This document shows, in pieces, positions 6,110 through 61,935 of a stretch of 64,000 bases of DNA. The position numbers were made by a program, and so were the translations under genes. This stretch comes from Prochlorococcus marinus CUG1438 (GTDB lineage: Bacteria; Cyanobacteriota; Cyanobacteriia; PCC-6307; Cyanobiaceae): positions 806,001 to 870,000 of the forward strand of contig JAEPLS010000001.1 in NCBI GenBank assembly GCA_017644325.1. The letters run 5' to 3'. The number at the start of each line of letters is the position of its first letter. Positions within the stretch are counted from its first letter, which is position 1. Below the pieces are notes generated by a model that was not told where the DNA came from, did not search any database, and saw only the letters and a list, made by a program, of their open reading frames with translations.

Positions 6110-6955
6110 ATAGAAAATACTTTTTTAAAAATAACTAGTAAAAACAATAATCTAGTTAAAAGATTTAGATCATTTAAAAGTGGATCGTCCCCAAAAGATC
6201 AAAACTTTTTTTGCATAGAGGGTACACATCTTATTGAAGAATTGTTGAAGTCTGGAAAAAATCCCTCTAAAATTTTAGTTACCGAAAAATGGCTAAAAAA
6301 GAATCAAAATCTAAGCAAAAAATTTAATCAGTCATTAATAAATACTGTCTCAGAGGATGTTTTGGCATCTGCGATTTCAACAATTAATCCAGATGGTATA
6401 GCAGCCTTGGTAGAGATTTCAGCAATTCCTAATTATCAATTTAATAGAAAAGATGATTTTGTTCTTGTTCTCGACAGGATTCAAGATCCAGGGAATATGG
6501 GTAATCTTTTTAGAACTGCTTTAGCTGCTGGTGTTGATGCAATTTTTTTAGCTGGTGGTGCGCACCCATTAGGCCAAAAGGTGTTAAGGGCATCTTCTGG
6601 TGCGGTTTTTCATTTGCCGTTTTTAAGATTTGATGGAACTGAAGAAGAAATATTAAAAACTTTATTAAATTCTTTATATGAATTGTCAAATCTTGGATTT
6701 AAGATTTTTTCTACTAGTAGCCATAATGAAAGTTCAAAAAACTCTTCAAAACCTTATTGGGAAATTGATTGGACTAAGTCCACTGCATTAATTTTGGGTA
6801 ATGAGGGTCGAGGTATTCATAAAAAAATTCAAGAAGCTTTTAATGAAACAATTACAATTCCGCATAGTAAGCTTGTAGAATCTTTGAATGTGGCTTGTGT
6901 TGCAGTTCCGTTATTACTAGAACGAAAAAGAGTCGCATACACCTCTAATAAATAA
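6110..6955 (+). CDS. SpoU/TrmH-family RNA 2'-O-methyltransferase
   Basis: This SPOUT enzyme methylates a ribose 2'-OH in rRNA or tRNA with SAM. The catalytic part has the three TrmH motifs: DRIQDPGNMGNLFRTA, ALILGNEGRG and IPHSKLVESLNVACVA. The first ordinary start is TTG at 6242, but the family's N-terminal RNA-binding domain (ITSKNNNLVKRFRSF and FFCIEGTHLIEELL) is encoded in the same frame upstream, back to a stop at 6089. There is no ATG, GTG or TTG in that stretch. I place the start at ATA 6110 (ATA-GAA-AAT-ACT), giving about 281 residues, as the best guess. Starting at 6242 would delete the conserved N-domain. lpdA follows after 8 bases. Confidence 0.75.
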   Translation: MENTFLKITSKNNNLVKRFRSFKSGSSPKDQNFFCIEGTHLIEELLKSGKNPSKILVTEKWLKKNQNLSKKFNQSLINTVSEDVLASAISTINPDGIAALVEISAIPNYQFNRKDDFVLVLDRIQDPGNMGNLFRTALAAGVDAIFLAGGAHPLGQKVLRASSGAVFHLPFLRFDGTEEEILKTLLNSLYELSNLGFKIFSTSSHNESSKNSSKPYWEIDWTKSTALILGNEGRGIHKKIQEAFNETITIPHSKLVESLNVACVAVPLLLERKRVAYTSNK

Positions 6956-6963
6956 ATAAAAAA

Positions 6964-8403
6964 GTGACTGATTCAAGTTTTGATTTTGATTTAATCGTAA
7001 TAGGAGCAGGATATGGAGGTTTTGATGCCGCTAAACATGCTGCTGGTAAGGGACTAAAAGTCGCAATTGTAGAATCTTCTGATATGGGAGGTACTTGTGT
7101 TAACAAGGGTTGTGTCCCCTCTAAAGCTCTTTTGGCTGCAAGTGGAAAAGTCAGAGAAATAGCTGATTATGAACATTTAGCTAAATTTGGTATTCATGCT
7201 TCCCCAGTAAGGTTCGAGAGATCAAAAATTGCAGATCATGCAAATAATTTAGTTTTAAATGTTAGAGAAAATTTGACGAAAACTCTTAAAAGAAGTGGAG
7301 TTGAAATTATTTTGGGCATTGGCAGAATTGAAGGAAATCAAAAAGTAGGTGTAAGAGATAAAAACGGAATTGATAAAATTTTCACATGTAAGAATATTGT
7401 TATAGCGACTGGTTCTTCGCCTTTTGTTCCTCGTGGAATAACTTTGGATAATAGGACTGTCTTTACTAGTGATGATGCGGTTAAACTTGAATGGCTTCCA
7501 AGATGGATAGCTATTATTGGAAGCGGATATATAGGATTAGAATTTGCTGATGTTTATACCGCGCTTGGTTGTGAAGTTACCATGATCGAGGCTTTGGAAA
7601 ATATTATGCCAACATTTGATCCTGATATCACAAAAATTGCAAAGAAGAACCTTATTCAAGCAAGAGATATAGACACGAAATCAAATGTCTTTGCGACAAA
7701 AATAACACCTGGATGTCCTGTAAAAATAGAACTCACAGATGCTAAATCTAAGGAAGTTGTAGAAACTTTAGAAGTTGACGCTGTTCTAGTGGCAACTGGC
7801 AGAAGTCCTAATAGTAATAACTTAAATCTTGAGTCGGTTGGGATCGAAACAGTAAGAGGTTTTATTCCTATAGATGATCAAATGAGAGTTAAGAATAGTG
7901 ATGAAATAATACCTAATATTTGGGCTGTTGGAGATGTAACAGGCAAACTAATGCTTGCTCATACAGCTGCAGCGCAAGGAACTATTGCTGTTGATAATAT
8001 TTGCGGTGGTAACGTCGAAATTAACTATAAAAGTATCCCTGCGGCAACCTTTACTCATCCTGAGATAAGTTCAGTTGGTCTTTCTGAAGCCGAAGCTAAG
8101 GAGTTATCTGCGAAAGAAAATTTTAATTTGGGAGTTGTTAAAAGTTTCTTCAAGGCTAATTCAAAAGCGTTGGCTGAATTGGAGAGTGATGGATTATTAA
8201 AGTTGATTTTCAATAAAGATAATGGGAAAGTTTTAGGTGCTCATATTTACGGGTTACATGCAGCTGATTTGATTCAAGAAATTTCGAACGCTATTTCAAG
8301 GAACCAAGATGTAATTGAATTATCTAAAGAAGTTCATACTCATCCTACTCTTAGTGAAGTAGTTGAGGTCGCATATAAACAAGCGGCTTCTCAAATAAAA
8401 TAA
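6964..8403 (+). CDS. lpdA: Dihydrolipoamide dehydrogenase (E3)
   Basis: LpdA reoxidises dihydrolipoamide of the pyruvate dehydrogenase complex (and glycine cleavage system) with NAD+, using FAD and a redox disulfide. The 479-residue protein starts at GTG. It has the FAD-binding GAGYGG near residue 15, the redox-active GTCVNKGCVPSK with Cys45 and Cys50, a second Rossmann motif GSGYIGLEFAD, ATGRSPN, and the C-terminal active-site HTHPTLSEV. pdhA, the E1-alpha partner, is at 17 kb. trpC follows 12 bases downstream. Confidence 0.95.
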   Translation: MTDSSFDFDLIVIGAGYGGFDAAKHAAGKGLKVAIVESSDMGGTCVNKGCVPSKALLAASGKVREIADYEHLAKFGIHASPVRFERSKIADHANNLVLNVRENLTKTLKRSGVEIILGIGRIEGNQKVGVRDKNGIDKIFTCKNIVIATGSSPFVPRGITLDNRTVFTSDDAVKLEWLPRWIAIIGSGYIGLEFADVYTALGCEVTMIEALENIMPTFDPDITKIAKKNLIQARDIDTKSNVFATKITPGCPVKIELTDAKSKEVVETLEVDAVLVATGRSPNSNNLNLESVGIETVRGFIPIDDQMRVKNSDEIIPNIWAVGDVTGKLMLAHTAAAQGTIAVDNICGGNVEINYKSIPAATFTHPEISSVGLSEAEAKELSAKENFNLGVVKSFFKANSKALAELESDGLLKLIFNKDNGKVLGAHIYGLHAADLIQEISNAISRNQDVIELSKEVHTHPTLSEVVEVAYKQAASQIK

Positions 8404-42223: not shown

Positions 42224-43615
42224 TTAAGGGCGAAGAATATCTAATTCTCTTGGTAAAAAACCCTTCAAGTCAAAAAAGAAGCCATTATGATCGATAATTT
42301 CTTCCCAATCATTTTTTTCTAATTTAAGATATTCTTGATGTGCTACGGTGCAAATTACAACATTATATTTGATATTAATTGGTACTTCATTTGAGACTTT
42401 AATTCCATAAGTTTTCATGAATTCTTTGCAGTCAGCAAGAGGGTCTACAACTGTTAGGTTTGTTTTGTATTTTTGAAAATTTTTAATTATATCTATAACT
42501 TTTGTGTTTCTTATATCGGAACAATTCTCCTTAAAAGTTATTCCAAGAATAAGAATTTCAGCCTTGTCGATATTTATACCCCTTCTGAAGATTTCAAGTA
42601 TTACTTGTTCAGTAACCCATTTACCCATATTGTCATTAATTTTTCTTCCGGCCAATACAATTTCTGGACAATAACCTAATAATTTGGCTTTATAAGTCAA
42701 ATAATAAGGATCTACCCCTATACAATGTCCTCCTACTAAACCAGGTTTAAATGGAAGAAAATTCCATTTACTTGAAGCTGCATCAATAACATCTAAAGTA
42801 TCTATTCCCATTAATTTGAAAATAATTGCAAATTCGTTTACTAAAGCAATATTTATATCTCTTTGAGTATTCTCAATAATTTTGGCTGCTTCAGCAACTC
42901 TAATACTATTGGCTTGATATATTCCTGCTTTAATTATTGACCCATAGAGATTTTTTATCCAATTTGAAGATTCAAGAGTATTACCGCTAGTGATTTTTTT
43001 GATATCTACTAAAGTATGTTTTTTGTCACCAGGATTTATTCTTTCAGGGCTGTATCCAAAAGCAAAGTCTAGGATATTTTCTTCGGAACCAATTTTTAGG
43101 TCTAACTGTTTTTTAATGATAGGAATACAAATTTCTTCTGTAGTCCCAGGAAAAACTGTACTCTCAAATATTATGATAGGTAATACTTTTTTTTCTTTTT
43201 TATTTAAATTGCGTTGCTTGATTTTTAATGCTTTACCAACAGTAAGGCACGCTTTCTTTAAGGGATCCAAATCAGGCTCTTTCAAATCATTAATTGGAGT
43301 TGGTACAGAAATAATAAATACATCGGCAGTTGATAGAGAGAATATATCTGAAGTCAAATCGTGGAATTTTATATTTGAAAGAACTTTATTAGAAATCTCA
43401 TTTGTTTTATCAATTCCTTTCTTTAATTCCTCTAATCGATCTTGATTAATATCAAAACCTATTATTTTTCTATCTAGAAAGTCTCCAGTTATATAGCAGT
43501 CTTTTTTCTTGGCCAATTCAATTGCCAAAGGAAGCCCTACATAACCTAAGCCAATAACAGCTATTGTACATTTATTTTTATCAGGGAAATGGTTTAATTT
43601 TTTTTTATTAGACAT
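42224..43615 (-). CDS. UDP-N-acetylglucosamine 6-dehydrogenase (TviB/WbpO-like)
   Basis: This is a nucleotide-sugar 6-dehydrogenase, 463 residues. The Rossmann motif IAVIGLGYVGLPLAIELAKK starts near residue 18, then VPTPINDLKEPDL, IFESTVFPGTTEE, the central INIALVNEFAIIF, the active-site Cys in GLVGGHCIGVDPYY, and ILILGITFKENCSDIRNTK. The DINQDRLEELKKGIDKT pattern is closer to Vi antigen TviB and WbpO (UDP-GlcNAc or UDP-GalNAc uronate) than to UDP-glucose dehydrogenase. The 4-epimerase gene upstream overlaps it by 8 bases. Confidence 0.85.
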   Translation of the reverse strand: MSNKKKLNHFPDKNKCTIAVIGLGYVGLPLAIELAKKKDCYITGDFLDRKIIGFDINQDRLEELKKGIDKTNEISNKVLSNIKFHDLTSDIFSLSTADVFIISVPTPINDLKEPDLDPLKKACLTVGKALKIKQRNLNKKEKKVLPIIIFESTVFPGTTEEICIPIIKKQLDLKIGSEENILDFAFGYSPERINPGDKKHTLVDIKKITSGNTLESSNWIKNLYGSIIKAGIYQANSIRVAEAAKIIENTQRDINIALVNEFAIIFKLMGIDTLDVIDAASSKWNFLPFKPGLVGGHCIGVDPYYLTYKAKLLGYCPEIVLAGRKINDNMGKWVTEQVILEIFRRGINIDKAEILILGITFKENCSDIRNTKVIDIIKNFQKYKTNLTVVDPLADCKEFMKTYGIKVSNEVPINIKYNVVICTVAHQEYLKLEKNDWEEIIDHNGFFFDLKGFLPRELDILRP

Positions 43616-49305: not shown

Positions 49306-50022
49306 TTATTTTCTTAATGATCTTTTGAAGAGAAATTCTGCCAACTCTAGATCAAAAGGATCATCAATGTTGATGACCTCTCTATTAATTAAGATAGCGT
49401 GGCAAGACTCATCTAAAATCGTTTTTTCTTCTATTAATTTTTTTCTTGTCAATGCATAACAAATACCATTTCTGTAAAAATAAGGAGGTATTTTTTGTCT
49501 TGGGACGTAAGAATTATCATTTGGTAAGTAGAACCCTATTTTCCCATCATTTTTAATTTCTAGAGCTTTTTGAGGTCTATAATGAGCGGGCATTAAACTG
49601 ACTGTTGCAACTGCTGGGTAATCATTTTTTATTAATTCAGTAAGACATAACTCAATATCTTTTGGAACTCTAAGTGGACTTGTGGGCTCAAGCAAAATCG
49701 AGATATCAAATTTCTTTTTCAGAATCTTTTCAGAAGTTATCCATGCATGAGTCCACATATCAACAGATGAAGCATTATCGGTTCCAAGAATTTCGGGACG
49801 TATGAAAGGGACCTCTAATCCACAATCTCTAGCTTCAGAAGCCATTTCTTTATCATCAGTTGAGATGATGGAATAGTCTAAAAAAGGAAGAGCTTTGCAG
49901 ATTTCTGAAGCATGTTTTATGAGAGATTTCCCAGAAATTTTCCTTAAATTTTTTCTCGGTATTCCTTTACTTCCTCCTCTTGCGGGAACAACCGCAAGAA
50001 TACTTTTACCAAATAGTGTCAT
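49306..50022 (-). CDS. neuA: Acylneuraminate cytidylyltransferase (NeuA/LegF-like)
   Basis: The 238-residue enzyme activates a nonulosonic acid with CTP to the CMP-sugar. It starts with ILAVVPARGGSKGIPRKNLR, the CMP-NeuAc synthetase signature, then DYSIISTDDKEMA, FDISILLEPTSPLR and YRNGICYALTR. It carries only the cytidylyltransferase domain. With the 2-epimerase, NulO synthase and aminotransferase genes nearby it completes the last activation step. Whether the sugar is sialic, legionaminic or another nonulosonic acid cannot be told from this gene. Confidence 0.88.
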   Translation of the reverse strand: MTLFGKSILAVVPARGGSKGIPRKNLRKISGKSLIKHASEICKALPFLDYSIISTDDKEMASEARDCGLEVPFIRPEILGTDNASSVDMWTHAWITSEKILKKKFDISILLEPTSPLRVPKDIELCLTELIKNDYPAVATVSLMPAHYRPQKALEIKNDGKIGFYLPNDNSYVPRQKIPPYFYRNGICYALTRKKLIEEKTILDESCHAILINREVINIDDPFDLELAEFLFKRSLRK

Positions 50023-50083
50023 ATTTTCATTTTATTATTAATTAGTAAAAATCTGATTGCATTTATATATTTATTTCTGAATA

Positions 50084-50881
50084 TTATTCAAGTTCAGCTA
50101 GTACCGAATACGCTATAGGAAATGATGTATATTTTCTTACTTTATTGGTATAATTTTGTTTTAAAGATGACCAATATTTAGTTTTAATAATATTATTTAA
50201 GTTTTTAATTTCATGAATTAAATCATCAGGTAGGTCATATTGAATAACTTGATCTATGGTGTAAATAAGAGATTCAACTGGAGACTTTGAAGTATTCACC
50301 TCTATAACTTTGAAACCACTACTCTCGAGAGAATATCTAATTCCATCTGCTGTAAATCTTAAAAAGTCATCAGGTTGTTGGTGATTTTCCCTTAAGGTGG
50401 CATCAAATATATACAAACGACCTTTTTCATTTAAAGCTTGCCTGCATATTTTAAATAGATCAAAGGGATTGGGATAATGATGAAGAACATTTGGAATAAA
50501 AATATAATCATATTTATTTTTTACAGATAAGATTTCCTTGATGTTATCTACGTTTATAGAGAAATCTGACTTTTTCATTCTACTTTTGGTAAGAGGTAGA
50601 AAATCTAGCTTATCAAGCTGTGCATTTTGCCTAATAGCCTCAGAGGAGTTTGGAGGGACATAATTATAGATAACAAGATCACCCACATAGAAAAGACTTG
50701 AAAAAATTGAAAACTCATCATAGATATAGCATCTTTCTAACAGTGCTGATCTTTTATTGGTAGTAATATTTTTTATAACTTTAATAATGTCATTAAAAAG
50801 AAGTTCATAATGCGGCCATTTAGTAAGGTCGTAAAGATTCTGAGTTAATTCATTTACAATTAATTGTTGTTCTTCTTTCAT
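50084..50881 (-). CDS. SAM-dependent methyltransferase, type 11-like
   Basis: The 265-residue protein has the class I methyltransferase features YDYIFIPNVLHHYPNPFDLF, ALNEKGRLYIFDATLREN and a final GIRYSLESSGFKVIEV strand. The SAM motif I is weak (VGDLVIYNYVPP). Its last gene neighbour upstream, the PhyH oxygenase, ends exactly where this one starts (50,881/50,882), so the two are translationally linked. It may methylate a sugar or another island product; this is inference. Confidence 0.7.
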   Translation of the reverse strand: MKEEQQLIVNELTQNLYDLTKWPHYELLFNDIIKVIKNITTNKRSALLERCYIYDEFSIFSSLFYVGDLVIYNYVPPNSSEAIRQNAQLDKLDFLPLTKSRMKKSDFSINVDNIKEILSVKNKYDYIFIPNVLHHYPNPFDLFKICRQALNEKGRLYIFDATLRENHQQPDDFLRFTADGIRYSLESSGFKVIEVNTSKSPVESLIYTIDQVIQYDLPDDLIHEIKNLNNIIKTKYWSSLKQNYTNKVRKYTSFPIAYSVLAELE

Positions 50882-51673
50882 TTATTTTTTGGTATTTTGA
50901 GATTTGGAAACTCTTTCTCTATTCCTTTTGATCATGTTTGCATACCATTCAAGATGCCCTTCCTTCATGGTTTCGTTCAGAGCATGAAATTGCAATCTTA
51001 CAACTAAACTTCTTTCTGCTGTATATGGTACTTCATCGGCAAAATGAACACTTCGCGCATGATGAATTGTGCAATCTCCTGGAGAATAATCAGGATCAAA
51101 AGTTTTATAAGGAATTGAATTAGGCTTTGCAACAGCTAGAGAAAACCCACTTGCATCTGATGGCTCATGTTCCAATTCATATGTATATGGATTCTTGTAG
51201 TATTTCAATCCTCCCATACTTGCAAACTCATTATTAATAGGAATATAAAATGTAAGAGCTTTTGCATTTTTCAATCCATAATATGCATTATCTTGATGGG
51301 GAGGTATTGGTGTACCTTTTGCACATCTGGAGTGAATTTCTACACTTTTGAGATAAACGCTCGTTCCAATTAAATGTTGAGCAACCTTAAAAATATCAGA
51401 AGTAACAAATTTTCCAAATAAAGAATGATTCTCTTTAAGAGGATATTCAAAATATTTTATATATTTTTTATTATCTACCAGATCAACTGTTAAACCTCTA
51501 TTATCCTCTTCATAAAGATCAATTATTTTTTCTTCATTTTTATAAATATATTCGCAAGCCTCTTTGCAGATATTTTTGCTAACTATACTAGTTACCTTTA
51601 TAGAAGAATATTCTAGAAAACTTCTTCTAGATTGATCATCGAATATATTTTCAATAGAGAAACATTGTTCCAC
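50882..51673 (-). CDS. Phytanoyl-CoA dioxygenase family (PhyH) oxygenase
   Basis: The 263-residue protein fits the Fe(II)/2-oxoglutarate PhyH family. IPPHQDNAYYGL gives the His-x-Asp iron ligands and CTIHHARSVHFADE gives the distal His, with SLVVRLQFHA supplying the 2-oxoglutarate arginine region. It should hydroxylate a small substrate. It sits in the nonulosonic acid block and is read directly into the methyltransferase, so together they could add an O-methyl group to a hydroxylated sugar or lipid; the substrate is unknown. Confidence 0.75.
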   Translation of the reverse strand: MEQCFSIENIFDDQSRRSFLEYSSIKVTSIVSKNICKEACEYIYKNEEKIIDLYEEDNRGLTVDLVDNKKYIKYFEYPLKENHSLFGKFVTSDIFKVAQHLIGTSVYLKSVEIHSRCAKGTPIPPHQDNAYYGLKNAKALTFYIPINNEFASMGGLKYYKNPYTYELEHEPSDASGFSLAVAKPNSIPYKTFDPDYSPGDCTIHHARSVHFADEVPYTAERSLVVRLQFHALNETMKEGHLEWYANMIKRNRERVSKSQNTKK

Positions 51674-51857
51674 TTTTAGAATTCTTTATTAATAGATTAT
51701 ATTTTATATTACATGATTTTTTAATAAATTCTCTCCTTGATAAAACAAACTTAAAAAGCACAAAAAAATACAACTGAAAGTAAATATTTCTTTCTTAATT
51801 ATTTTATGATTTTTTTCTTTGAATTTATTTTTAAATAATACTCTGTAAATTTAATTT

Positions 51858-53036
51858 TTAATGTATATCATGAAATTTTTTCTTTAGAATAGAATTTAAA
51901 TCTTTATCGAGATCAAATTCTTCTATTATCTCTAAAATTTTATTACTAGCTGAACCATTGCCATATGGATTAATTGTTTTCTTTAGTGAATACTGAAATT
52001 CCTTAGAATAAAGCTTTATTATCGATTTAATAAGATCTTTTTCATCTGGCTTACAATCAATAATACTTGAGGCTTTTAATCTTCCTTTTTGTCTGTCACC
52101 AATATTAATAGTTCCTTTAAAGAAACTTGGAACCTCAATTAAGCCACTAGATGAGTTTCCAATAACACCATCTACAATTTTTAAACATGATAGATACCTA
52201 AGTTGACCTAAAGACTTAAAGTAAATCGAATTTCTATTTGATTTACAAAATTCTTTGATTGATTTAATTATTATTCTTCCGTTGGTATCAGCATTGGGCA
52301 TTGTAAAGATAAAATTTATATCTTTAAATTTTTCAATAGCTTTTAGTATTTGTTCAATTTGAGCTTCACTAGTATTTTGCTCTAACGTTACTGGATGAAA
52401 AGTTACTAATAAGTTCTTATCCCAAAATTTCACTCCTAGATTTTGCTCTAGCTTTTCTTTAGACAAAAGTTTCATTTTATTAATACTGTCAATTCCTAAA
52501 CCACCTACTTCAAAAACAAATTGAGGATTCTCACCTAATTGCAAAACCCTTCTCTTGTAATCTTTTGCCGCGACAAAATGAAAATGAGACATTTTGGTAA
52601 TACTATGTCTAATTGCTTCATCAATTACCCCTTCTGTGGATTCGCCTCCATGAATATGCGCAATTGGTGTTCGTGAAATCATTGCCGCTATTGCCGCCGA
52701 ATAAATTTCATATCTATCTCCAAGTAAAACTAATAAATCTGGTTTATGACATTCAAATTTATCCGCAAAACCTATTAGACCTAGGCCAATTGATTTTGAA
52801 ATTGCAGTTGGAGTATCTGAACTTAATAACATTTCAACCTTATCGCTAATCAAATATCCATCAGACTTTATTTCATTTACTGTTAATCCAAATTCTGGAG
52901 ATAAGTGTGATCCTGTAACAATTAAAATTAAATCTAAATCTTTTGACTCATGAATTCCTCTTATTATCCATCTTAATAATCCATATTCTGCCCTAGTTCC
53001 AGTTACTACACAGATTTTTTTTCTTTTATTTACCAT
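51858..53036 (-). CDS. neuC: UDP-N-acetylglucosamine 2-epimerase (hydrolysing), NeuC/LegG-like
   Basis: The 392-residue enzyme hydrolyses UDP and epimerises C2, giving a free ManNAc-type sugar. It begins KICVVTGTRAEYGLLRWII, a NeuC hallmark, then LVLLGDRYEIYSAAIAAMI, IAHIHGGESTEGVIDEAIRH and NSSSGLIEVPSFFKGTINIG. The start overlaps the NulO synthase end by 7 bases. In legionaminic acid synthesis the LegG type acts on a 2,4-diamino-trideoxy UDP or GDP-sugar; the aminotransferase and dehydratase nearby favour that type over plain NeuC. Confidence 0.88.
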   Translation of the reverse strand: MVNKRKKICVVTGTRAEYGLLRWIIRGIHESKDLDLILIVTGSHLSPEFGLTVNEIKSDGYLISDKVEMLLSSDTPTAISKSIGLGLIGFADKFECHKPDLLVLLGDRYEIYSAAIAAMISRTPIAHIHGGESTEGVIDEAIRHSITKMSHFHFVAAKDYKRRVLQLGENPQFVFEVGGLGIDSINKMKLLSKEKLEQNLGVKFWDKNLLVTFHPVTLEQNTSEAQIEQILKAIEKFKDINFIFTMPNADTNGRIIIKSIKEFCKSNRNSIYFKSLGQLRYLSCLKIVDGVIGNSSSGLIEVPSFFKGTINIGDRQKGRLKASSIIDCKPDEKDLIKSIIKLYSKEFQYSLKKTINPYGNGSASNKILEIIEEFDLDKDLNSILKKKFHDIH

Positions 53037-54034
53037 TTTATTAAATTATCTTTTTTAAAGTTATGGCGCGAAGTTTTACCAATTAATTCATCCCATAGAA
53101 GAGGAGATATCCCTGTCCCTGGCCTCTTTACACATAAATTTTCTGAATTAAAAACATCACCAATATTAATATTCTGTTTAGCAACAATAGATTTTCTTGC
53201 TACTTTCCGATTTTCTAATTCTTGATTTGATGGTTTTTTTATATTGCTGCCTAACGCAATCTCAACTCTCCTAATATTTTTTACCATTTCGGCAAATTTA
53301 TTAGGTTCTATACTGGCTTTATGGTCCGGTCCTGGTAGCGTTCTGTCAATAGTAAGATGCTTCTCAATTATGACTGCTCCTAAGGCAACTGCTGCTACAG
53401 CAATATCAATCCCTTCAGTATGATCTGAATACCCTACTTTAACCCCAAATGCAGATTTTATTGTATTCATTGCTTTTAAATTTACAGTTTCTATTGAAGC
53501 AGGATACTCGGTAGAACAATGCAAAATAGTTATAAGATCTTTATTGGTACCATATTTATTTATTTCTTCTAGTGCAATTTCAATCTCTCCAAGAGTAGAC
53601 ATCCCTGTTGATAAAATTATAGGTTTTTTAATAGCAGCAATTTTTCTAATCAAAGGTAGATTAGTAATTTCACCAGAGGGAATTTTATTTCTTTTTAAGG
53701 AAAATTTTTTTAGTAATGAGAGACTTGCTAAATCAAAAGATGTAGAAAGAAATTCAATATTTTTTTCATTACAATGTTCAATCAACTCATGATGGTCACT
53801 CTCGCTAAGTTTTAAATTGTTCAACATATCTAGTTGAGATACTTGATTGCCAATATTACTTTTTTGGTATTCTGCTAGTGGAGCATAATCTGTTGAAAGT
53901 TCACTAGGTAAAAAAGTTTGAAATTTAACAATATCAGCACCAGCATTATATGCAGCATCAATTAATTTATGTGCAAGTTTAATATCACCATTATGATTTA
54001 CTCCAGCTTCTGCAATTATCAAAGTTTTAGACAT
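53030..54034 (-). CDS. neuB: Nonulosonic acid synthase (NeuB/LegI-like)
   Basis: The 334-residue enzyme condenses PEP with a ManNAc-type sugar to a nine-carbon acid. It begins LIIAEAGVNHNGDIKLAHKL, then FQTFLPSELSTDYAPLAEYQ, LSTSFDLASLSLL, IILSTGMSTLGEIE, LGAVIIEKHLTIDRTLPGPD (metal and PEP site). The C-terminal SAF (antifreeze-like) domain covers about residues 275-334. Full length is normal. It is coupled to neuC by overlap. Confidence 0.92.
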   Translation of the reverse strand: MSKTLIIAEAGVNHNGDIKLAHKLIDAAYNAGADIVKFQTFLPSELSTDYAPLAEYQKSNIGNQVSQLDMLNNLKLSESDHHELIEHCNEKNIEFLSTSFDLASLSLLKKFSLKRNKIPSGEITNLPLIRKIAAIKKPIILSTGMSTLGEIEIALEEINKYGTNKDLITILHCSTEYPASIETVNLKAMNTIKSAFGVKVGYSDHTEGIDIAVAAVALGAVIIEKHLTIDRTLPGPDHKASIEPNKFAEMVKNIRRVEIALGSNIKKPSNQELENRKVARKSIVAKQNINIGDVFNSENLCVKRPGTGISPLLWDELIGKTSRHNFKKDNLIKW

Positions 54035-54131
54035 TTTTATTTGGTGAAAATCTTTCTTAGGAATAATTAATAATTTAGACCTATATTTTACAATACATCG
54101 TTTTTTGAGGCTTCAGCTGGCAATTTTTTCT

Positions 54132-55349
54132 TTAGTTTTGATTTTTCATTAGCGTAAGTTGAGGACTGCTTGGAAGACTTATGAGCCTAGCCTCTTGATC
54201 TTCTGCTACTTTTAACTTACTTCTTGGCGAATCTTTGTACATTTCTAATGTATGTAAAAGCTTCCAGACTGGCCTAAGTAGAATTTTTTCTGAATGTGCT
54301 TTTCTTAATAGGCTCTCCCTTTTTAATAATGCATTTTCTCTTTTCTTATCAAGAAATCTTAAATTTATTAACCAATTATTCTTTATGTTTTTGGTTTGAT
54401 CTTCTATTATTTCGATTCCTTCAATGTTTAATAAATTTTTTTTATATGTCTGAAATAAATTCTTTTTTAATTCTAATTTTTCATTTATTGATTCAAGTTG
54501 AGATACTCCAAGCGCTGCATTAATGTTTGGCATTCTATCATTCCAGCCTATTTCAGTATGATTAAATTCCCATGGATGACTTGCTTTTGCTGTAGTAGAG
54601 AGATATCTAGATTTTTCTGCAACTTGTTTGTTATTAGTTATTAAAATCCCTCCTCCTCCTGTAGTAATAATTTTATTTCCATTAAATGAAAAAACACCTA
54701 TCTCTCCATTTAAACCGCAATGTGTATATTCTCCATTTTTAAAATGCCTACTCCCAAGTGCTTCTGCAGCATCTTCGACTATGGGCAACCCCCAGTGATC
54801 AGCAACTTTTTTTATTTCTATGATGTCCGCTGGGATTCCAAATATATGAACTGGCATAATTGCAGTTATTCTTCTTCCTGTTTTTTTATTAATTACAAAT
54901 CCAGATTTTTTTTTGGCGATACTCTCTAATCTTCTTTGGAGGCTTCTATGACACATTCCAAGATTCTCTTTATTGATATCAACAAAATGTGGTATTGCCC
55001 CAAGATGTGAAACTGCATTGGCTGTTGCTACAAAAGTTAAAGGTGGAATTATTACTTCATCTAAAGGTTTGACTCCAATCGAGTGGAGTGCCAATCTTAA
55101 ACCTACTGAACCATTAGTTACTGCTATGGCATATTCCGCACCAGTAAATTCACATATCTTTTTTTCTAATCTTGAAATCCATTCTCCTGCTGAGCTAACC
55201 CATCCACTATCAATACAATCCTTTATGTAGGATAAGGCATTTGTGCCTTGGAAATAAGGCTCATGCAAACCAATATATTCATTAGAATTATTGTGTTTAA
55301 TAGAAAGTTTAATCGCTTCAAATAATTCCTCAGTATATTTTCCCATCAT
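54132..55349 (-). CDS. DegT/DnrJ/EryC1 aminotransferase, LegC-like
   Basis: The 405-residue PLP enzyme puts an amino group on a 4-keto sugar nucleotide. LEKKICEFTGAEYAIAVTNG, VIIPPLTFVATANAVSHLGA, VEDAAEALGSRHFKNGEYTH and the PLP lysine in FSFNGNKIITTGGGG are all present. A 50-residue N-terminal extension (MGKYTEELFEAIK and onwards) is typical of LegC-type enzymes. It is directly downstream of the 4,6-dehydratase (55349/55350), so together they would give the 4-amino-4,6-dideoxy sugar. Confidence 0.85.
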   Translation of the reverse strand: MMGKYTEELFEAIKLSIKHNNSNEYIGLHEPYFQGTNALSYIKDCIDSGWVSSAGEWISRLEKKICEFTGAEYAIAVTNGSVGLRLALHSIGVKPLDEVIIPPLTFVATANAVSHLGAIPHFVDINKENLGMCHRSLQRRLESIAKKKSGFVINKKTGRRITAIMPVHIFGIPADIIEIKKVADHWGLPIVEDAAEALGSRHFKNGEYTHCGLNGEIGVFSFNGNKIITTGGGGILITNNKQVAEKSRYLSTTAKASHPWEFNHTEIGWNDRMPNINAALGVSQLESINEKLELKKNLFQTYKKNLLNIEGIEIIEDQTKNIKNNWLINLRFLDKKRENALLKRESLLRKAHSEKILLRPVWKLLHTLEMYKDSPRSKLKVAEDQEARLISLPSSPQLTLMKNQN

Positions 55350-56354
55350 TTAAATTTCATACATATTAGGCTTGTATTTAGACAAGTTTTTATGATCACT
55401 AAACCAATTAGAAGTTATCTTTAAACCTTTTTTAAAACCATTTAATCCAGAAAATTTTGGCTTCCAGTCGGTAATTTTTTTTATTAAAGTATTATCACCG
55501 TAGAGTCTTTTGACTTCAGAATCTTTAGGCCTCAATCTTATATTATCAGTTTCAATTTCAATGGTCGTATTCATTACTTCAGCAATCATTTTTGCTGTTT
55601 CGCCAATTGAGATTTCGAAATTACTCGCAACATTTAAAACTTTGCCTATAGACTCTGAACTTTTTGAAATAGATAAATAAGCTTTACATGTATCTTCAAC
55701 GAAATTGAAATCTCTTGTAGGATTTATTGAACCTAGTTTTATTTTTCTTTTCCCAGAAGCTATTTGAGTAATGATTGTGGGGATAACAGCTCTGGCACTT
55801 TGTCTAGGCCCATATGTATTAAAAGGTCTTATAACTGAAATTGGTGTTTGGAAACTTCTCCAAAAACTTAATGCCATTTGATCAGCACCAATTTTACTCG
55901 CTGCATATGGAGATTGACCTACGAGTGGATGATTTTCAGATATTGGAACAAACTGCGCAGTTCCATATGTTTCTGAAGTCGAAGTATGGATTACTCTATC
56001 TACATTAAATTCTTTAGCAGCCTGAATAACATTTAACGTACCATGAATGTTTGTGTCTATATAACTAGATGGTGAAATATAGCTATAAGGTATAGCAATT
56101 AAAGCCGCTAGATGATAAATTTCATTGCAACCTTTTACTTCTCTTCTTACTAATTCTGGATCTCTAATATCTCCTAAACAAACTTCTACTTCATTTTTAA
56201 TTTCCTCGGAAACTGAATCGAGCCAACCCCAATTACTTGTGGAGTTATAAAAACAAAAAGCTTTTACACTGTATCCTGATTTAATTAAAAGCTCTACAAG
56301 ATGAGATCCAATAAATCCATCAGCTCCTGTAACTAAAACTTTTTTACTATTCAT
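55350..56354 (-). CDS. NAD-dependent sugar-nucleotide 4,6-dehydratase (LegB-like)
   Basis: The 334-residue extended SDR starts KVLVTGADGFIGSHLVELL, has STSETYGTAQFVPISENHP, the catalytic SPYAASKIGADQMAL, IRPFNTYGPRQSARAVIPT and TRDFNFVEDTCKAYLSI. In LegB-type enzymes this dehydrates GDP- or UDP-GlcNAc. The 4-keto product is the aminotransferase substrate. No gap separates it from that gene. Confidence 0.83.
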   Translation of the reverse strand: MNSKKVLVTGADGFIGSHLVELLIKSGYSVKAFCFYNSTSNWGWLDSVSEEIKNEVEVCLGDIRDPELVRREVKGCNEIYHLAALIAIPYSYISPSSYIDTNIHGTLNVIQAAKEFNVDRVIHTSTSETYGTAQFVPISENHPLVGQSPYAASKIGADQMALSFWRSFQTPISVIRPFNTYGPRQSARAVIPTIITQIASGKRKIKLGSINPTRDFNFVEDTCKAYLSISKSSESIGKVLNVASNFEISIGETAKMIAEVMNTTIEIETDNIRLRPKDSEVKRLYGDNTLIKKITDWKPKFSGLNGFKKGLKITSNWFSDHKNLSKYKPNMYEI

Positions 56355-56483
56355 CGTTTCTTAAATATATTGACATAAAAAATACTTTAAAACTATATTC
56401 TCTATCCTAATTTATTGATACAAACTAATTTGTATCGTACAATAAAACGTTAAATTTGTTTTGAGATTTTTATTGATTTTCAA

Positions 56484-57191
56484 TTATAAATCATCAAGTT
56501 TTAAATAAAAATTAAGTCCATGAAGATTAATTCTTGGCGGATATTCTTTAATGTAAGTTGCTCGAATGATACGATTAAGTTCTTTTTCTGAAATATTAAT
56601 TGAGACTGTTTGAAGTGTATCTAACTCTTTTAATAATCTGGCATTACCTTTCCACTTTTCATCTTTGGATAAGCCAATCTTATCATTGATAACATTGTCT
56701 CCAAAAGTATTGATTTCTTTTATGAAGTCAGAGCATAAATTAAAAAGTTCTTTATGGGTTCTCGATAATAAAGTTGGCAAATCATCAAGAGAATCAACTG
56801 GAAATCTTCTAACTTCAAGTATCTCCCCATTATCAATTTTTTCATTCATAATATGAGCTGTAACACCAAAAACCTTGACATCATCGTATAAAGCAAAATT
56901 GATACAGCCGCTCCCAGGATATTCTGGAGGCCCCGGGTGAAAATTTACTGCTGCTACTTTTGCTTTTTCGATAAGTGTTTTTGGTAAGATCATTAAACTT
57001 CTAAAACAAAGAATAAAATCACCCTCCCATTTAAGAATATCCTTTGGTAATTTTTGACCTCTTTTACTTGATTGAACAAAAGTTACATCAAAACCAAAGT
57101 TTTTAAGTTGATTAAAAATAGATTTGGATAAATTACATTTTGTTCTTCCAAAAAATAAAATACGTTTTGAATTTACTTTGTCATTTTTCAT
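56484..57191 (-). CDS. Formyltransferase-family protein within the nonulosonic acid block
   Basis: The 235-residue protein resembles the methionyl-tRNA and sugar formyltransferase family: KRILFFGRTKCNLSKSIFNQ at the start, FILCFRSLMILPKTLIEKAK, AVNFHPGPPEYPGSGCINFA (with the catalytic Asn and His) and VFGVTAHIMNEKIDNGEIL (Asp in DNGEIL). It lacks the C-terminal domain of methionyl-tRNA formyltransferase. No acetyltransferase of the LegH type is visible nearby, so I infer that it N-formylates the 4-amino sugar or a later intermediate. 10-formyl-THF is the expected donor. Confidence 0.8.
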   Translation of the reverse strand: MKNDKVNSKRILFFGRTKCNLSKSIFNQLKNFGFDVTFVQSSKRGQKLPKDILKWEGDFILCFRSLMILPKTLIEKAKVAAVNFHPGPPEYPGSGCINFALYDDVKVFGVTAHIMNEKIDNGEILEVRRFPVDSLDDLPTLLSRTHKELFNLCSDFIKEINTFGDNVINDKIGLSKDEKWKGNARLLKELDTLQTVSINISEKELNRIIRATYIKEYPPRINLHGLNFYLKLDDL

Positions 57192-57264
57192 TTATATATT
57201 ATTTAAGAGTTTTTAATAAATAAAAAGTTATAATTTTATATTCTATCGCTAATTACTTTTAGGA

Positions 57265-57296
57265 AAAATACTTTTAAAACTTTATTAAAGTATTTT
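57265..57296. repeat. Inverted repeat in the divergent spacer 57192-57463
   Basis: AAAATACTTT (57265-57274) and AAAGTATTTT (57287-57296) form a perfect 10-bp inverted repeat with a 12-base loop. It lies between two divergent island genes, so it is more likely an operator than a terminator. The AT-rich composition raises the chance of coincidence. The rest of this 272-base spacer shows nothing recognisable. Confidence 0.35.
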
Positions 57297-57463
57297 ACCT
57301 GTTATCAATATTATGGGAGGTTAAATTGATTTGAAAATCTTTCTTGTGAATTAATATTATCTCTGTAAACTTAAATTAATCTTTAATTTGTAATACTATA
57401 TATAAATATAATTTTAGAAAAAAAAGTGAATATTAATAGGATATGATTATGTTTTAAATTATT

Positions 57464-58522
57464 TTGGTCAAAATGGATATGCATCCCTATTTCCTAAGGC
57501 CTGAAGCAACTTTAAGAGAAGCTTTTAAAACAATTGAAAATAATCGTGGAAATATTGCACTTATTGTTGATCCTGATGATAAGTTGATGGGTTTAGTAAC
57601 TGATGGAAATGTAAGAAGAGGACTATTAAATGGACTTGATTTAGACGCAAAAGTGTTGAATGTAATGACAGAAAAAATGATATTTCTTAAAAGCAGTCTT
57701 CACTCTTTGAAAGCTACAGCAGAAGCTTTAATGATAAAACATGATATTCAGCAAATCCCAGTAATAAATGAAAAAGGCATTGTAATAGATCTATTGCTTA
57801 GAAAGGATTTTAACAACCATTTTATTAGTCAATTACCTTATGTAGTTATCATGGCAGGAGGTTTAGGTTCAAGACTCCTACCTTTAACGAAGGAAACTCC
57901 TAAACCCATGCTAAAAATAGGCGAGACTCCGATGATGGAGATTGTCCTATCTCAATGTATACGTTCAGGATTAAAAAATTTTTATTTCGCAGTAAATCAC
58001 CTGAAAGATCAGATTATTGAATACTTTGGAGATGGTACAAAATGGGGCGTTTCAATAAAATACCTAGAGGAAGAACAACCTTTAGGAACAGCAGGGGCTT
58101 TAAAACTTCTACCAAATAACTTAGATAAACCACTTTTAGTTTTGAACGGTGATGTCTTGACAGATTTAAATATAAATAACCTTATTAAATTTCATATTGA
58201 ACATGATTCTCTGGCAACAATATGTGTAAGAGAATATTTGGAAAGCATACCTTTTGGAGTTGTCAGCCTAGATGGAGAAAAAGTCTTAGAAATCAAAGAA
58301 AAACCATCATTTAAACATTATGTTAATGGGGGAGTATATGTATTAAATCCTGAAATTACGAAATTAATTTCTCCTGGTTTAAAAGTTGATATGCCAGATT
58401 TAATAAATTTCGCAAGAGGTGAAAACTATAAAATAAGTGCATATCCCATACATGAATATTGGTTAGATGTGGGTATACCTGAAACATTTAAACAAGCAAA
58501 AAAGGATTGGAAAGATTTATAA
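57464..58522 (+). CDS. Sugar-1-phosphate nucleotidyltransferase with N-terminal CBS domains (PtmE-like)
   Basis: The 352-residue protein has a CBS pair in its first 115 residues (PEATLREAFKTIENNRGNIA, LVTDGNVRRGLL, IQQIPVINEKGIVIDLLLRK) followed by a nucleotidyltransferase domain: VVIMAGGLGSRLLPLTKETP, PMLKIGETPMMEIVLSQC, LLVLNGDVLTDLNI. PtmE of Campylobacter, a glucosamine-1-phosphate guanylyltransferase of the legionaminic acid route, has this domain order. Start is TTG 57464 or ATG 57473; the latter may be real. It reads divergently from the other nonulosonic acid genes. Confidence 0.85.
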   Translation: MVKMDMHPYFLRPEATLREAFKTIENNRGNIALIVDPDDKLMGLVTDGNVRRGLLNGLDLDAKVLNVMTEKMIFLKSSLHSLKATAEALMIKHDIQQIPVINEKGIVIDLLLRKDFNNHFISQLPYVVIMAGGLGSRLLPLTKETPKPMLKIGETPMMEIVLSQCIRSGLKNFYFAVNHLKDQIIEYFGDGTKWGVSIKYLEEEQPLGTAGALKLLPNNLDKPLLVLNGDVLTDLNINNLIKFHIEHDSLATICVREYLESIPFGVVSLDGEKVLEIKEKPSFKHYVNGGVYVLNPEITKLISPGLKVDMPDLINFARGENYKISAYPIHEYWLDVGIPETFKQAKKDWKDL

Positions 58523-60190: not shown

Positions 60191-61162
60191 ATGTATTTGA
60201 ACTCTAAAAATAATTTTTACCACGGCATAATGTTTCATCATTTTCACGACAATGAGATTCATCCTAAAGGCCAAGGGTCCATAAATAAAGATGAATTTTA
60301 TAAAATAATAAATTTTGTTGGAAGAAAAAATATCTTAGATGCTGAAGTATTTTTTGATAAATTCATGAAGAATAATCTCAAAGATTCAGATGTTTGTTTT
60401 ACTTTCGATGACGCTATTAAATGCCAAATAGATATTGCCCTACCTGTATTAGAAGATCTTAATATTAAGAGCTTCTTTTTTGTCTACACTTCAATTTTTG
60501 AAGGTAATCCAGATAATTTAGAATACTTTAGATATTTTAGGATGAACTATTTCCCCAATATTGATTCGTTTTATGATTGTTTTTATGATGTTTTAGATGA
60601 AGATTTGGAAAATTTTTTTAAACTAAGTATTAATAAAATTAAATCAATAAAAATTAGATCTCCGCATTATTCAACTGCAGATATAAAATTTAGACTAGTG
60701 AGAGATTCTTATTTAACAAAAACAAAATATGAAAAAATTATGTTTTCTATGTTTAAGCAAAAAGGATTTAATTATAAAGATTTTACTGAAAAACTTTTTT
60801 TCCAAAAGAATGATTTAAAAAAACTTGATCAACTTGGCCATTCTATAGGTTTACATTCGCATAATCATCCAACTCTTATAGAAAATCTTAGTTTTGAGGA
60901 ACAAAAAAAAGAATACGAAGCATGTTTGTCTTCAATATCTAAAATTTTAGAGAAGCCAAAGAAAGAAATTAAATACATGTCTCATCCTTGTGGTAGTTAC
61001 AATGGTGATACCCTTATGATTTTAAAAGAGCTTGGAATTAAATTAGGCTTTAAACAGATAATGGAGATAGAAAAAGAAAGAGGTATGTCTAAAGTTAATA
61101 ATTCTCCTTTAGAAATAGCAAGACAAAATCATTCAAAAATACATAAGGAAATAAATAAATGA
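60191..61162 (+). CDS. Polysaccharide deacetylase (NodB-like) family protein
   Basis: The 323-residue protein shows NodB homology motifs: DVCFTFDDAIKCQIDIALPV (the TFDD metal and base motif), SIGLHSHNHPTLIENLSFEE (HxxxH ligand motif) and MSHPCGSYNGDTL (motif 3). It has no signal peptide, so it acts in the cytoplasm, perhaps removing an N-acetyl or N-formyl group from a sugar nucleotide. It starts GIMFHHFHDNEIHPKGQGSI. Its stop overlaps the start of the second formyltransferase by ATGA, so the two work on related substrates. Confidence 0.8.
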   Translation: MYLNSKNNFYHGIMFHHFHDNEIHPKGQGSINKDEFYKIINFVGRKNILDAEVFFDKFMKNNLKDSDVCFTFDDAIKCQIDIALPVLEDLNIKSFFFVYTSIFEGNPDNLEYFRYFRMNYFPNIDSFYDCFYDVLDEDLENFFKLSINKIKSIKIRSPHYSTADIKFRLVRDSYLTKTKYEKIMFSMFKQKGFNYKDFTEKLFFQKNDLKKLDQLGHSIGLHSHNHPTLIENLSFEEQKKEYEACLSSISKILEKPKKEIKYMSHPCGSYNGDTLMILKELGIKLGFKQIMEIEKERGMSKVNNSPLEIARQNHSKIHKEINK

Positions 61163-61935
61163 GAATTACACTTTTCACCGCAAACAAAAACAGGCATAAC
61201 TACCTCATAAATCTTTTAGCCGAGGTTTGCGAAGAATTATTTGTCGTTCAAGAGTGTGGAACAATTATGCCGGTCCCAAATAATTATTATCAATCTCCAA
61301 TAATGGAAAAATATTTTGAAAATGTTCTAAAAGCTCAAGAAAAACTTTTTGGAAATTCCTATGTAAATAATAAAAATAGGAATATTAAAACTTTACCTAT
61401 GCTTTATGGAGATTTAAATCAATGTTCAATTAATTTTCTAGAAGATTTTTTAGAGAGTGATATTTTTATTGTCTTTGGTTCTAGTTATATAAAGGGTGAT
61501 CTTATTAATTTTTTAATTAAAAAAAAAGCTATAAATATCCATGCAGGAATATCCCCCTATTACAGAGGAAGTGCATGCAATTTTTGGGCTTTATATGATG
61601 ATAATCCTCATTTAGTAGGTGCAACAATACATTTACTTTCAAAAGGTTTAGATAGCGGACCCATTTTGTATCATGCTATTTCAAAAGTAATAGAAGATCC
61701 TTTTATATTCACAATGGCAAGTATAAAATCTGCTTTTCATTCTATTGCCCATAGAATTAAAGATGAAACTATTTTGAAAATAAAACCCATAACTCAAGAT
61801 AAAAGCAAGCAGTTAAGATATTCAAAAAAAAGTGAATTTAATGAAGAAATAATAGAAAATTATTTTAAAAAAGGTATCGACTTAAAAAAAATGGAATATA
61901 AAACATCTATCTTCAAAGATCCATATATCTTATAA
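61159..61935 (+). CDS. Second formyltransferase-family protein
   Basis: The 258-residue protein has FIVFGSSYIKGDLINFLIKK, AINIHAGISPYYRGSACNFW (Asn and His of the formyltransferase active site) and GATIHLLSKGLDSGPILYH (catalytic Asp). It begins MRITLFTANKNRHNYLINLL. It is coupled to the NodB-type gene by ATGA. A deacylase followed by a formyltransferase would swap an acyl group for formyl on an amino sugar. This reading is inference. Confidence 0.8.
   Translation: MRITLFTANKNRHNYLINLLAEVCEELFVVQECGTIMPVPNNYYQSPIMEKYFENVLKAQEKLFGNSYVNNKNRNIKTLPMLYGDLNQCSINFLEDFLESDIFIVFGSSYIKGDLINFLIKKKAINIHAGISPYYRGSACNFWALYDDNPHLVGATIHLLSKGLDSGPILYHAISKVIEDPFIFTMASIKSAFHSIAHRIKDETILKIKPITQDKSKQLRYSKKSEFNEEIIENYFKKGIDLKKMEYKTSIFKDPYIL

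Follow-up and report, generated by a model that had tools for sequence, protein, structure and literature searches.

A legionaminic-type nonulosonic acid gene cluster of Prochlorococcus marinus CUG1438 with a formyltransferase as candidate substitute for LegH

Gene content of the cluster

Genes for a nonulosonic acid of the legionaminic type, accompanied by a gene for a putative sugar N-formyltransferase (FT1), lie on a 64,000-nucleotide stretch of the genome of Prochlorococcus marinus CUG1438 (1.63 Mb in 4 contigs). The whole stretch (G000:C1:806001-870000) is referred to here as the window, and positions are those of the window unless another locus is named. Genes were called with the curated cut-offs of NCBIfam and with Pfam, and scores are given as bits/cut-off. 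Read along the minus strand, the cluster consists of FT1 (57191-56484), legB, legC, neuB/legI, neuC/legG, a PhyH-like gene, a methyltransferase-like gene and neuA/legF. The 4,6-dehydratase LegB (55350-56354; TIGR04180, 521.6/475), the aminotransferase LegC (54132-55349; TIGR04181, 485.3/420), the nonulosonic acid synthase LegI/NeuB (53030-54034; TIGR03569, NeuB_NnaB, 485.7/399.65) and the hydrolysing 2-epimerase LegG/NeuC (51858-53036; TIGR03568, NeuC_NnaA, 486.2/235.9) all score above their NCBIfam cut-offs. The CMP-nonulosonate cytidylyltransferase of the LegF/NeuA type (49306-50022) was recognized by Pfam (PF02348, CTP_transf_3, 57.8/22.6); its top NCBIfam model is PseF, with 114.3 bits against a cut-off of 205.7. 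FT1 (PF00551, 58.5/26.1) occupies positions 56484-57191. Divergent from it, on the plus strand, is a gene for a protein with CBS and nucleotidyltransferase domains (57464-58522; PF00571 and PF00483, NTP_transferase), which we take to be of the PtmE type. The spacing on the minus strand is operon-like: legB and legC abut (55350/55349), and neuB and neuC overlap by 7 bases. The 97 bases between legC and neuB (54035-54131) are empty here; in many related clusters this is the site of NeuD or of a formyltransferase. The legionaminic-type cluster is real and intact. An earlier reading made from the letters of the DNA (the sequence-only reading) had listed a Leg-type gene set at this locus, and every gene that it named was found as an open frame where it had been placed. 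Its list did leave out two genes in the interval (50084-50881 and 50882-51673), and its placing of PtmE at the front was right as to presence and loose as to position, since that gene runs divergently on the plus strand.

Two other nonulosonic acid routes were considered and rejected. The models for a pseudaminic route score far below their cut-offs on LegB (PseB, 71.0/407.75) and on LegC (PseC, 208.7/423.5), and PseI, with 275.5 bits on the synthase, is also under its cut-off. A neuraminic route as the whole story is ruled out because LegB and LegC are over theirs. The best match of the LegG/NeuC protein in the PDB is a GDP/UDP-N,N'-diacetylbacillosamine 2-epimerase (E 4e-101), with UDP-GlcNAc 2-epimerase/kinase far behind (3e-42), a ranking which favours LegG over the NeuC of sialic acid synthesis. 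As the nearest solved relative of LegG acts on diacetylbacillosamine, its expected substrate is a 4-N-acyl sugar nucleotide. Queries for SDR and MocA proteins, taken from related clusters, revealed no oxidoreductase of the PtmA or PtmF type between positions 43601 and 64000. A scan for promoters and terminators gave no more matches than were obtained in shuffled sequences.

FT1 as a sugar N-formyltransferase

FT1 is a protein of 235 amino acids (aa) in which the Asn-His-Asp triad is intact (N83, H85 and D120); the three residues are invariant in FT1 and 14 relatives. Its predicted model is confident (pLDDT 92.4, pTM 0.88). The first match in a profile search of the PDB was WbkC, a GDP-perosamine 4-N-formyltransferase (E 1e-16), which was also the first Foldseek match of the model (E 1e-15). 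In a VIA fold comparison, where rows up to 1 Z apart count as tied, the top 13 rows are all sugar N-formyltransferases (Z 20.8 to 19.0), and those among them with titles that name a substrate or position are, without exception, 4-N, Qui4N or perosamine enzymes. Next come 10-formyl-tetrahydrofolate (THF) dehydrogenase and ArnA (Z 18.6 to 18.0), while the 3-N enzymes QdtF, FdtF and WlaRD are lower (Z 18.0 to 17.1), as is PseJ (Z 16.6). The predicted model is closest to the 4-N-formyltransferases of 4-amino-4,6-dideoxy sugar nucleotides, the type of compound that LegC would produce. This ranking fits the C4 amine as the substrate of FT1, although a common fold is no proof of substrate.

Search for LegH

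The sequence-only reading had stated that LegH is missing. Across the whole genome, this is true for NeuD (TIGR03570), of which nine weak matches were found with none over the cut-off (best 53.3/160.8), and for PF13480 and PF13302, for both of which there were zero matches in 1.63 Mb. Five proteins of the GNAT family PF00583 are present, all of them outside the island of sugar genes to which the cluster belongs (the sugar island). A LegH elsewhere in the genome would have spoken against the idea of a replacement; none was found in the families searched, except for a weakly related hexapeptide protein. This WbbJ-like acetyltransferase of 195 aa (L016:13609-14196) is encoded in the sugar island, about 20 kb from the cluster, and scores below the cut-offs of both WbbJ (82.6/243) and NeuD (61.3/160.8). 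It is without the N-terminal part of NeuD, and its match to the NeuD model is confined to the C-terminal quarter. Three of the weak NeuD matches were inspected: two read as LpxA-like and CysE-like proteins by their sequences and neighbours, and the third is the WbbJ-like protein. NeuD and FemX-like queries, run over the window plus 55 kb of flanking DNA, matched only the WbbJ-like gene. Pfam scans of the sugar island covered part of its open reading frames (ORFs), not every one.

Acyltransferases in related clusters

LegB was searched in overlapping sets of genomes drawn from the family (400 genomes), the genus (266) and the phylum (386). Regions were taken around LegB matches over the cut-off and around lower ones down to 395 bits, which, together with the window, gave 53 loci. 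A cluster was called complete when it contained LegB together with LegC (37 %), NeuB (40 %) and NeuC (30 % identity), thresholds that were set by us; 31 clusters passed and 22 were excluded. Just outside the 31 are L106, which has a formyltransferase and no such LegC, L070, which has a FemX-like gene and a NeuB slightly under the threshold, and L132, in which LegC reaches 36-37 % and no local acyltransferase is present. The legB and legC genes of L069 and the frameshifted formyltransferase of L060, a locus in which several genes are frameshifted, were located with tblastn.

NeuD is present in 19 of the 31 complete clusters, a formyltransferase with the Asn-x-His motif in 6 (the window, L049, L052, L060, L064 and L148) and a FemX-like protein in 3 (L063, L131 and L153), while 3 (L057, L072 and L138) have no local acyltransferase. 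L057 was counted among the latter; its FT1-family gene (37 %) lies some 4 kb beyond neuB, surrounded by unrelated genes. NeuD directly follows legC in 15 of its 19 clusters and is located elsewhere in the cluster in L059, L141, L142 and L146. The formyltransferase gene is situated between legC and neuB in all of its clusters other than the window. NeuD and a formyltransferase of the catalytic type were never found together (0/31; Fisher one-sided 0.0013, or 0.0032 without the window). Weak matches to the NeuD profile before legB in L148 (53 bits) and L149 (37 bits) were not counted.

A genome-wide search for NeuD was performed in 34 genomes, namely those of the 31 clusters plus G588 (L106), G926 (a Magnetovibrio metagenome-assembled genome, MAG) and G398 (L070). 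NeuD over the cut-off was found in 19/19 genomes with a NeuD cluster (by construction), in 0/8 with a formyltransferase, in 0/4 with a FemX-like protein and in 3/3 without a local acyltransferase. What makes the last group informative is that each of its genomes has, at another place, the gene absent from the cluster (0/8 versus 3/3, Fisher 0.006). Since the relatives share ancestry and are not independent samples, which counts against a strong reading of the pattern, this P value and those above are guides only. Each of the 34 genomes holds a candidate acyltransferase of one of the three classes. Within the genus of the window, NeuD (in the cluster of five genomes), a formyltransferase (the window and G588) and a FemX-like protein (G422 and G398) are all represented, and in genus g34 formyltransferase clusters (G213, G260 and G317) occur besides a FemX-like one (G301).

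A natural exchange is seen between G786 (L148) and G822 (L149), two genomes of one genus, both 99 % complete. Nine proteins shared by their clusters (LegB, LegC, NeuB, NeuC, a second formyltransferase, PIG-L, PtmE, an SDR and a MocA-type protein) are 89-96 % identical, while the gene after legC encodes a formyltransferase of 292 aa in G786 and a NeuD of 192 aa in G822. This natural difference makes the proposed change of the acyl group directly testable. The exchange at the same position in this pair and the mutual exclusion of the two enzymes among the 31 clusters support the suggestion of the sequence-only reading that a formyltransferase stands in for LegH.

The FemX-like family (L063:11778-12830, L070:1237-2268, L131:8144-9151 and L153:11630-12589) takes the place of the acyltransferase in its Leg clusters. 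No Pfam match over the cut-off was obtained for it (FemAB is matched below the cut-off in L070 and L131), and the profile match to FemX has an E of 7e-4. The predicted model is poor (pLDDT 53.6), and its fold matches to FemX are weak, with a TM near 0.3. The L063 protein was at first pass falsely matched as a formyltransferase and belongs with the FemX-like proteins instead. The resemblance to an amino-acid transferase hints at an aminoacyl group in those clusters.

At five loci (L067, L071, L073, L139 and L140), what comes after LegB, without an intervening LegC, is a divergent NeuB and a protein that weakly resembles NeuC. These clusters possibly specify a nonulosonic acid without an amine at C7.

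Relatives of FT1

A pattern-limited scan of 84,980 genomes for the FT1 family gave 14 loci. The nearest relative, 64 % identical to FT1, is encoded in the Magnetovibrio MAG (L112), where it follows an SDR gene and amidotransferase genes (WbuX, HisF and HisH) and is located between two pieces of NeuA. Another contig of the same MAG carries LegC (483 bits), NeuC, NeuB, PtmE and a MocA-type gene and ends inside NeuA. The gene beside this LegC is not LegB by its score (53.6 versus 475), and no NeuD match was present in the MAG at E 1e-25. The neighbours of the FT1-family gene were partly read at 8 of the 14 loci. In two Pseudoalteromonas loci, the FT1-family gene follows a DegT aminotransferase, and in one of these relatives (L118) a gene that reads as a sugar-phosphate transferase is nearby. 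Relatives of FT1 in phages were limited to 15 records with less than 40 % identity and partial cover, and none was found in viral contigs. As read from the sequences, the FT1-family gene has a gene for a small protein (about 115-130 aa) beside it in L113, L117, L118 (where it is fused) and L123 (assigned by position and length).

The formyltransferases encoded between legC and neuB in related clusters are larger, at about 300 aa. The L052 protein shares 53-63 % identity with four others, including that of L106, and a profile of the group is nearest to ArnA.

Proposed pathway and alternative explanations

The amine that LegC installs at C4 of the sugar becomes that at C7 of the nonulosonic acid, so that the sequence-only reading had chosen the right position in predicting a formyl group on C7. 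In the proposed pathway, LegB would convert NDP-GlcNAc, the nucleotide presumably being GDP, to the 4-keto-6-deoxy sugar, and LegC would then place an amine onto C4. As the third step, FT1 would transfer a formyl group from N10-formyl-tetrahydrofolate onto this amine, replacing LegH. LegG would subsequently remove the nucleotide and invert C2, LegI would add pyruvate, and LegF would yield the activated product, presumably CMP-5-N-acetyl-7-N-formyl-legionaminic acid or a close stereoisomer. The order of the steps is that of the legionaminic pathway (PMC6137143). We consider a legionaminic-type pathway with N-formylation by FT1 in place of LegH probable, at roughly 0.6. The wider proposal, for which we see about even odds, is that the N-acyl group at C7 of legionaminic-type acids in cyanobacteria depends on one exchangeable gene, for which three unrelated options exist: NeuD for acetyl, a formyltransferase for formyl and possibly a FemX-like protein for aminoacyl. 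Strains would swap this gene and keep the other pathway genes nearly constant, so that the surface acid would be tuned by one gene, and the window would represent a separate recruitment from another subfamily.

Several observations weigh against assigning this role to FT1 or against the exchange itself. FT1 does not belong to the subfamily found at the legC-neuB site of the relatives (26-35 % identity to those tested); it is encoded before legB, 5' of it and away from the usual position, and the gap of 129 bases between the two genes leaves co-transcription unproven. Among the 14 FT1-family loci, nonulosonate genes were found near FT1 in only L112 with the queries used, and among the 266 genomes of the genus, its own included, just one other (G504) has a clear FT1 relative, with none of the query-set genes beside it. 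Two of the 8 formyltransferase genomes, G120 and G588, which are only 74 % and 77 % complete, contain a NeuD-like match below the cut-off, of 113 bits in the former and of 105 bits, interrupted by stops, in the latter. The G786/G822 pair differs in more than the acyltransferase gene: legB and legC of G786 are separated by two additional ORFs, the ORF of its second formyltransferase is shorter, and the gene before legB is just 58 % identical between the two. The WbbJ-like hexapeptide protein, finally, could in principle acetylate the amine made by LegC.

The chief rival explanation, an unlikely one in our view, is that FT1 acts on another surface sugar and that the amine at C7 is either acylated by a different enzyme, such as the WbbJ-like protein, or left free. 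The FT1-family genes found mostly lie outside nonulosonate clusters, the Pseudoalteromonas relatives have a DegT aminotransferase and, in L118, a putative sugar-phosphate transferase beside them, and the WbbJ-like gene belongs to the same island as FT1. That protein is, however, closest to O-acetyltransferases, and the quarter of the NeuD model that it matches is the C-terminal one only. LegC is the sole DegT aminotransferase found in the island; of the two full-length ones in the genome, the other is far away, at C1:133441, beside a photolyase-like gene. Also, the genome with the nearest FT1 relative combines LegC, NeuC, NeuB and PtmE with a lack of NeuD matches, and a candidate acyltransferase of one of the three classes is held by 34/34 genomes examined. 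A more improbable variant is that the LegH substitute is not FT1 but FT3, a second formyltransferase encoded at positions 61159-61935 on the plus strand (PF00551, 36.2 bits), with FT1 doing something else. FT3 has the same intact Asn-His-Asp triad, is encoded 4 kb away and shares its strand with the PtmE-type gene, which lies upstream of it; these points speak in its favour and against FT1. It is separated from ptmE by two genes, though, and is paired with a polysaccharide deacetylase (60191-61162, plus strand; PF01522, 64.1 bits), suggesting that its amine comes from de-N-acetylation. Very improbable, in our view, is a formyl group on N5 with C7 acylated in another way, the arrangement suggested by Halorubrum sp. 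PV6, for which 5-N-formyl-legionaminic acid and leg genes including a predicted formyltransferase were described (PMC6137143). The deacetylase gene is only 3 kb from FT1, but it is FT3 that it abuts. Halorubrum has NeuD beside its formyltransferase, while the CUG1438 genome has none over the cut-off, and in the clusters compared NeuD and catalytic-type formyltransferases are mutually exclusive. The reading that we prefer is that with FT1 a 4-N-type formyltransferase was recruited to a Leg cluster independently for a second time; FT3 and the WbbJ-like protein are rival candidates.

Relation to known systems

In the pseudaminic route, the role of PseH is taken by PseJ. The PseJ of Anoxybacillus kamchatkensis (PDB 6ci2, 6ci4 and 6edk) is close to FT1 in size (217 versus 235 residues) and matches it in sequence profile (E 3e-10) as well as in the fold comparison given above (Z 16.6). 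Its system differs in that the dehydratase and aminotransferase of the window are LegB and LegC, far under the cut-offs of PseB and PseC, and WbkC and other 4-N enzymes fit FT1 better than PseJ does.

The legionaminic cluster of Campylobacter jejuni has a nucleotidyltransferase of the PtmE type with a role in the pathway. Compared with that species, the cluster of CUG1438 is without a LegH-type N-acetyltransferase over the cut-off and has a formyltransferase instead. The order of steps in the GDP-linked CMP-legionaminic pathway of C. jejuni is the same (PMC7439481, PMC6137143).

WbkC (5vyr-5vyu), the best profile and Foldseek match of FT1, acts on a GDP-linked 4-amino-4,6-dideoxy sugar according to the names in the PDB; it has about 18 % identity with FT1 over the fold. 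The sugar that it modifies goes into O-polysaccharide, not into a nonulosonic acid (PMC5981137). Closer in gene content is Halorubrum sp. PV6, which has legB, legC, legF, legG and legI together with a predicted formyltransferase gene (PMC6137143). In this archaeon, N-formylated legionaminic acid was seen by mass spectrometry, with the formyl group assigned to N5. It differs from CUG1438 in having a NeuD homologue beside the formyltransferase, while LegH was assigned to another gene (PMC6137143). In Geobacillus PSS1, the formyltransferase gene fmt3 replaces the acetyltransferase gene fdtC, which the authors read as formyl for acetyl, although the sugar in question is a dTDP-sugar of flagellin glycans and not a nonulosonic acid (PMC5109656). 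N-formyl-legionaminic acid (Halorubrum), a parallel enzyme (PseJ) and a formyl-for-acetyl swap (Geobacillus) are thus already known.

A three-way exchange of acyltransferases in cyanobacteria was not found described in the one open-licence library searched, and no study of nonulosonic acids in cyanobacteria was found there by titles and the beginnings of abstracts. Variable islands hold the envelope genes of marine picocyanobacteria, with phages and grazers as the presumed agents of selection (PMC2984593). If the proposal is true, the exchange of a single gene changes which acyl group a sialic-acid-like sugar carries in bacteria that abound in the ocean, and there would be a rule for predicting the N-acyl groups of nonulosonic acids from gene content.

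Further formyltransferases and neighbouring genes

Two further formyltransferase genes lie within 17 kb, FT3 and, outside the window, L016:8226-8942. FT3 and the polysaccharide deacetylase are direct neighbours (60191-61935). Within about 26 kb, an enzyme that exposes an amine is paired with a formyltransferase three times: the deacetylase with FT3, LegC with FT1 and PIG-L with FT2. A second group of nonulosonate-type genes is located outside the window (L016:6163-12287; G000:C1:876163-882287) and comprises a CapD-like SDR, a NeuA-like protein, a formyltransferase, a PIG-L deacetylase, a glycosyltransferase, NeuB and an RmlD-like SDR, of which the NeuA-like protein and the glycosyltransferase were labelled by reading of the sequence. 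Its NeuB is under the cut-offs of both NeuB and PseI, and the catalytic Asn of its formyltransferase is replaced by Met.

A formyltransferase-like protein is followed by a PIG-L deacetylase in L055, L059, L060, L106, L148 and L149. In this formyltransferase-like protein, Gly replaces the catalytic Asn in L055, L059, L106 and L149, with His and Asp kept; Gly and Arg are present in the frameshifted copy of L060, and that stretch is missing from the L148 ORF. This pair was considered as a marker of NeuD clusters and rejected, as it occurs together with NeuD in L055, L059 and L149 and together with a catalytic-type formyltransferase in L060, L106 and L148. Because the pair is present with either C7 enzyme, it may remodel N5.

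The two genes between neuA/legF and neuC/legG encode a methyltransferase-like protein (50084-50881, minus strand; PF08242, 24.2 bits, under the Pfam cut-off) and a PhyH-like protein of the 2-oxoglutarate oxygenase type (50882-51673, minus strand). The latter has no Pfam or NCBIfam match itself and a weak match to SnoN in the PDB (E 0.006); it is called PhyH-like on the basis of its homologue in the Leg cluster of L059 (G052, 6684-7475), which matches PhyH. The presence of both genes in the cluster (50084-51673) hints at further decoration of the sugar.

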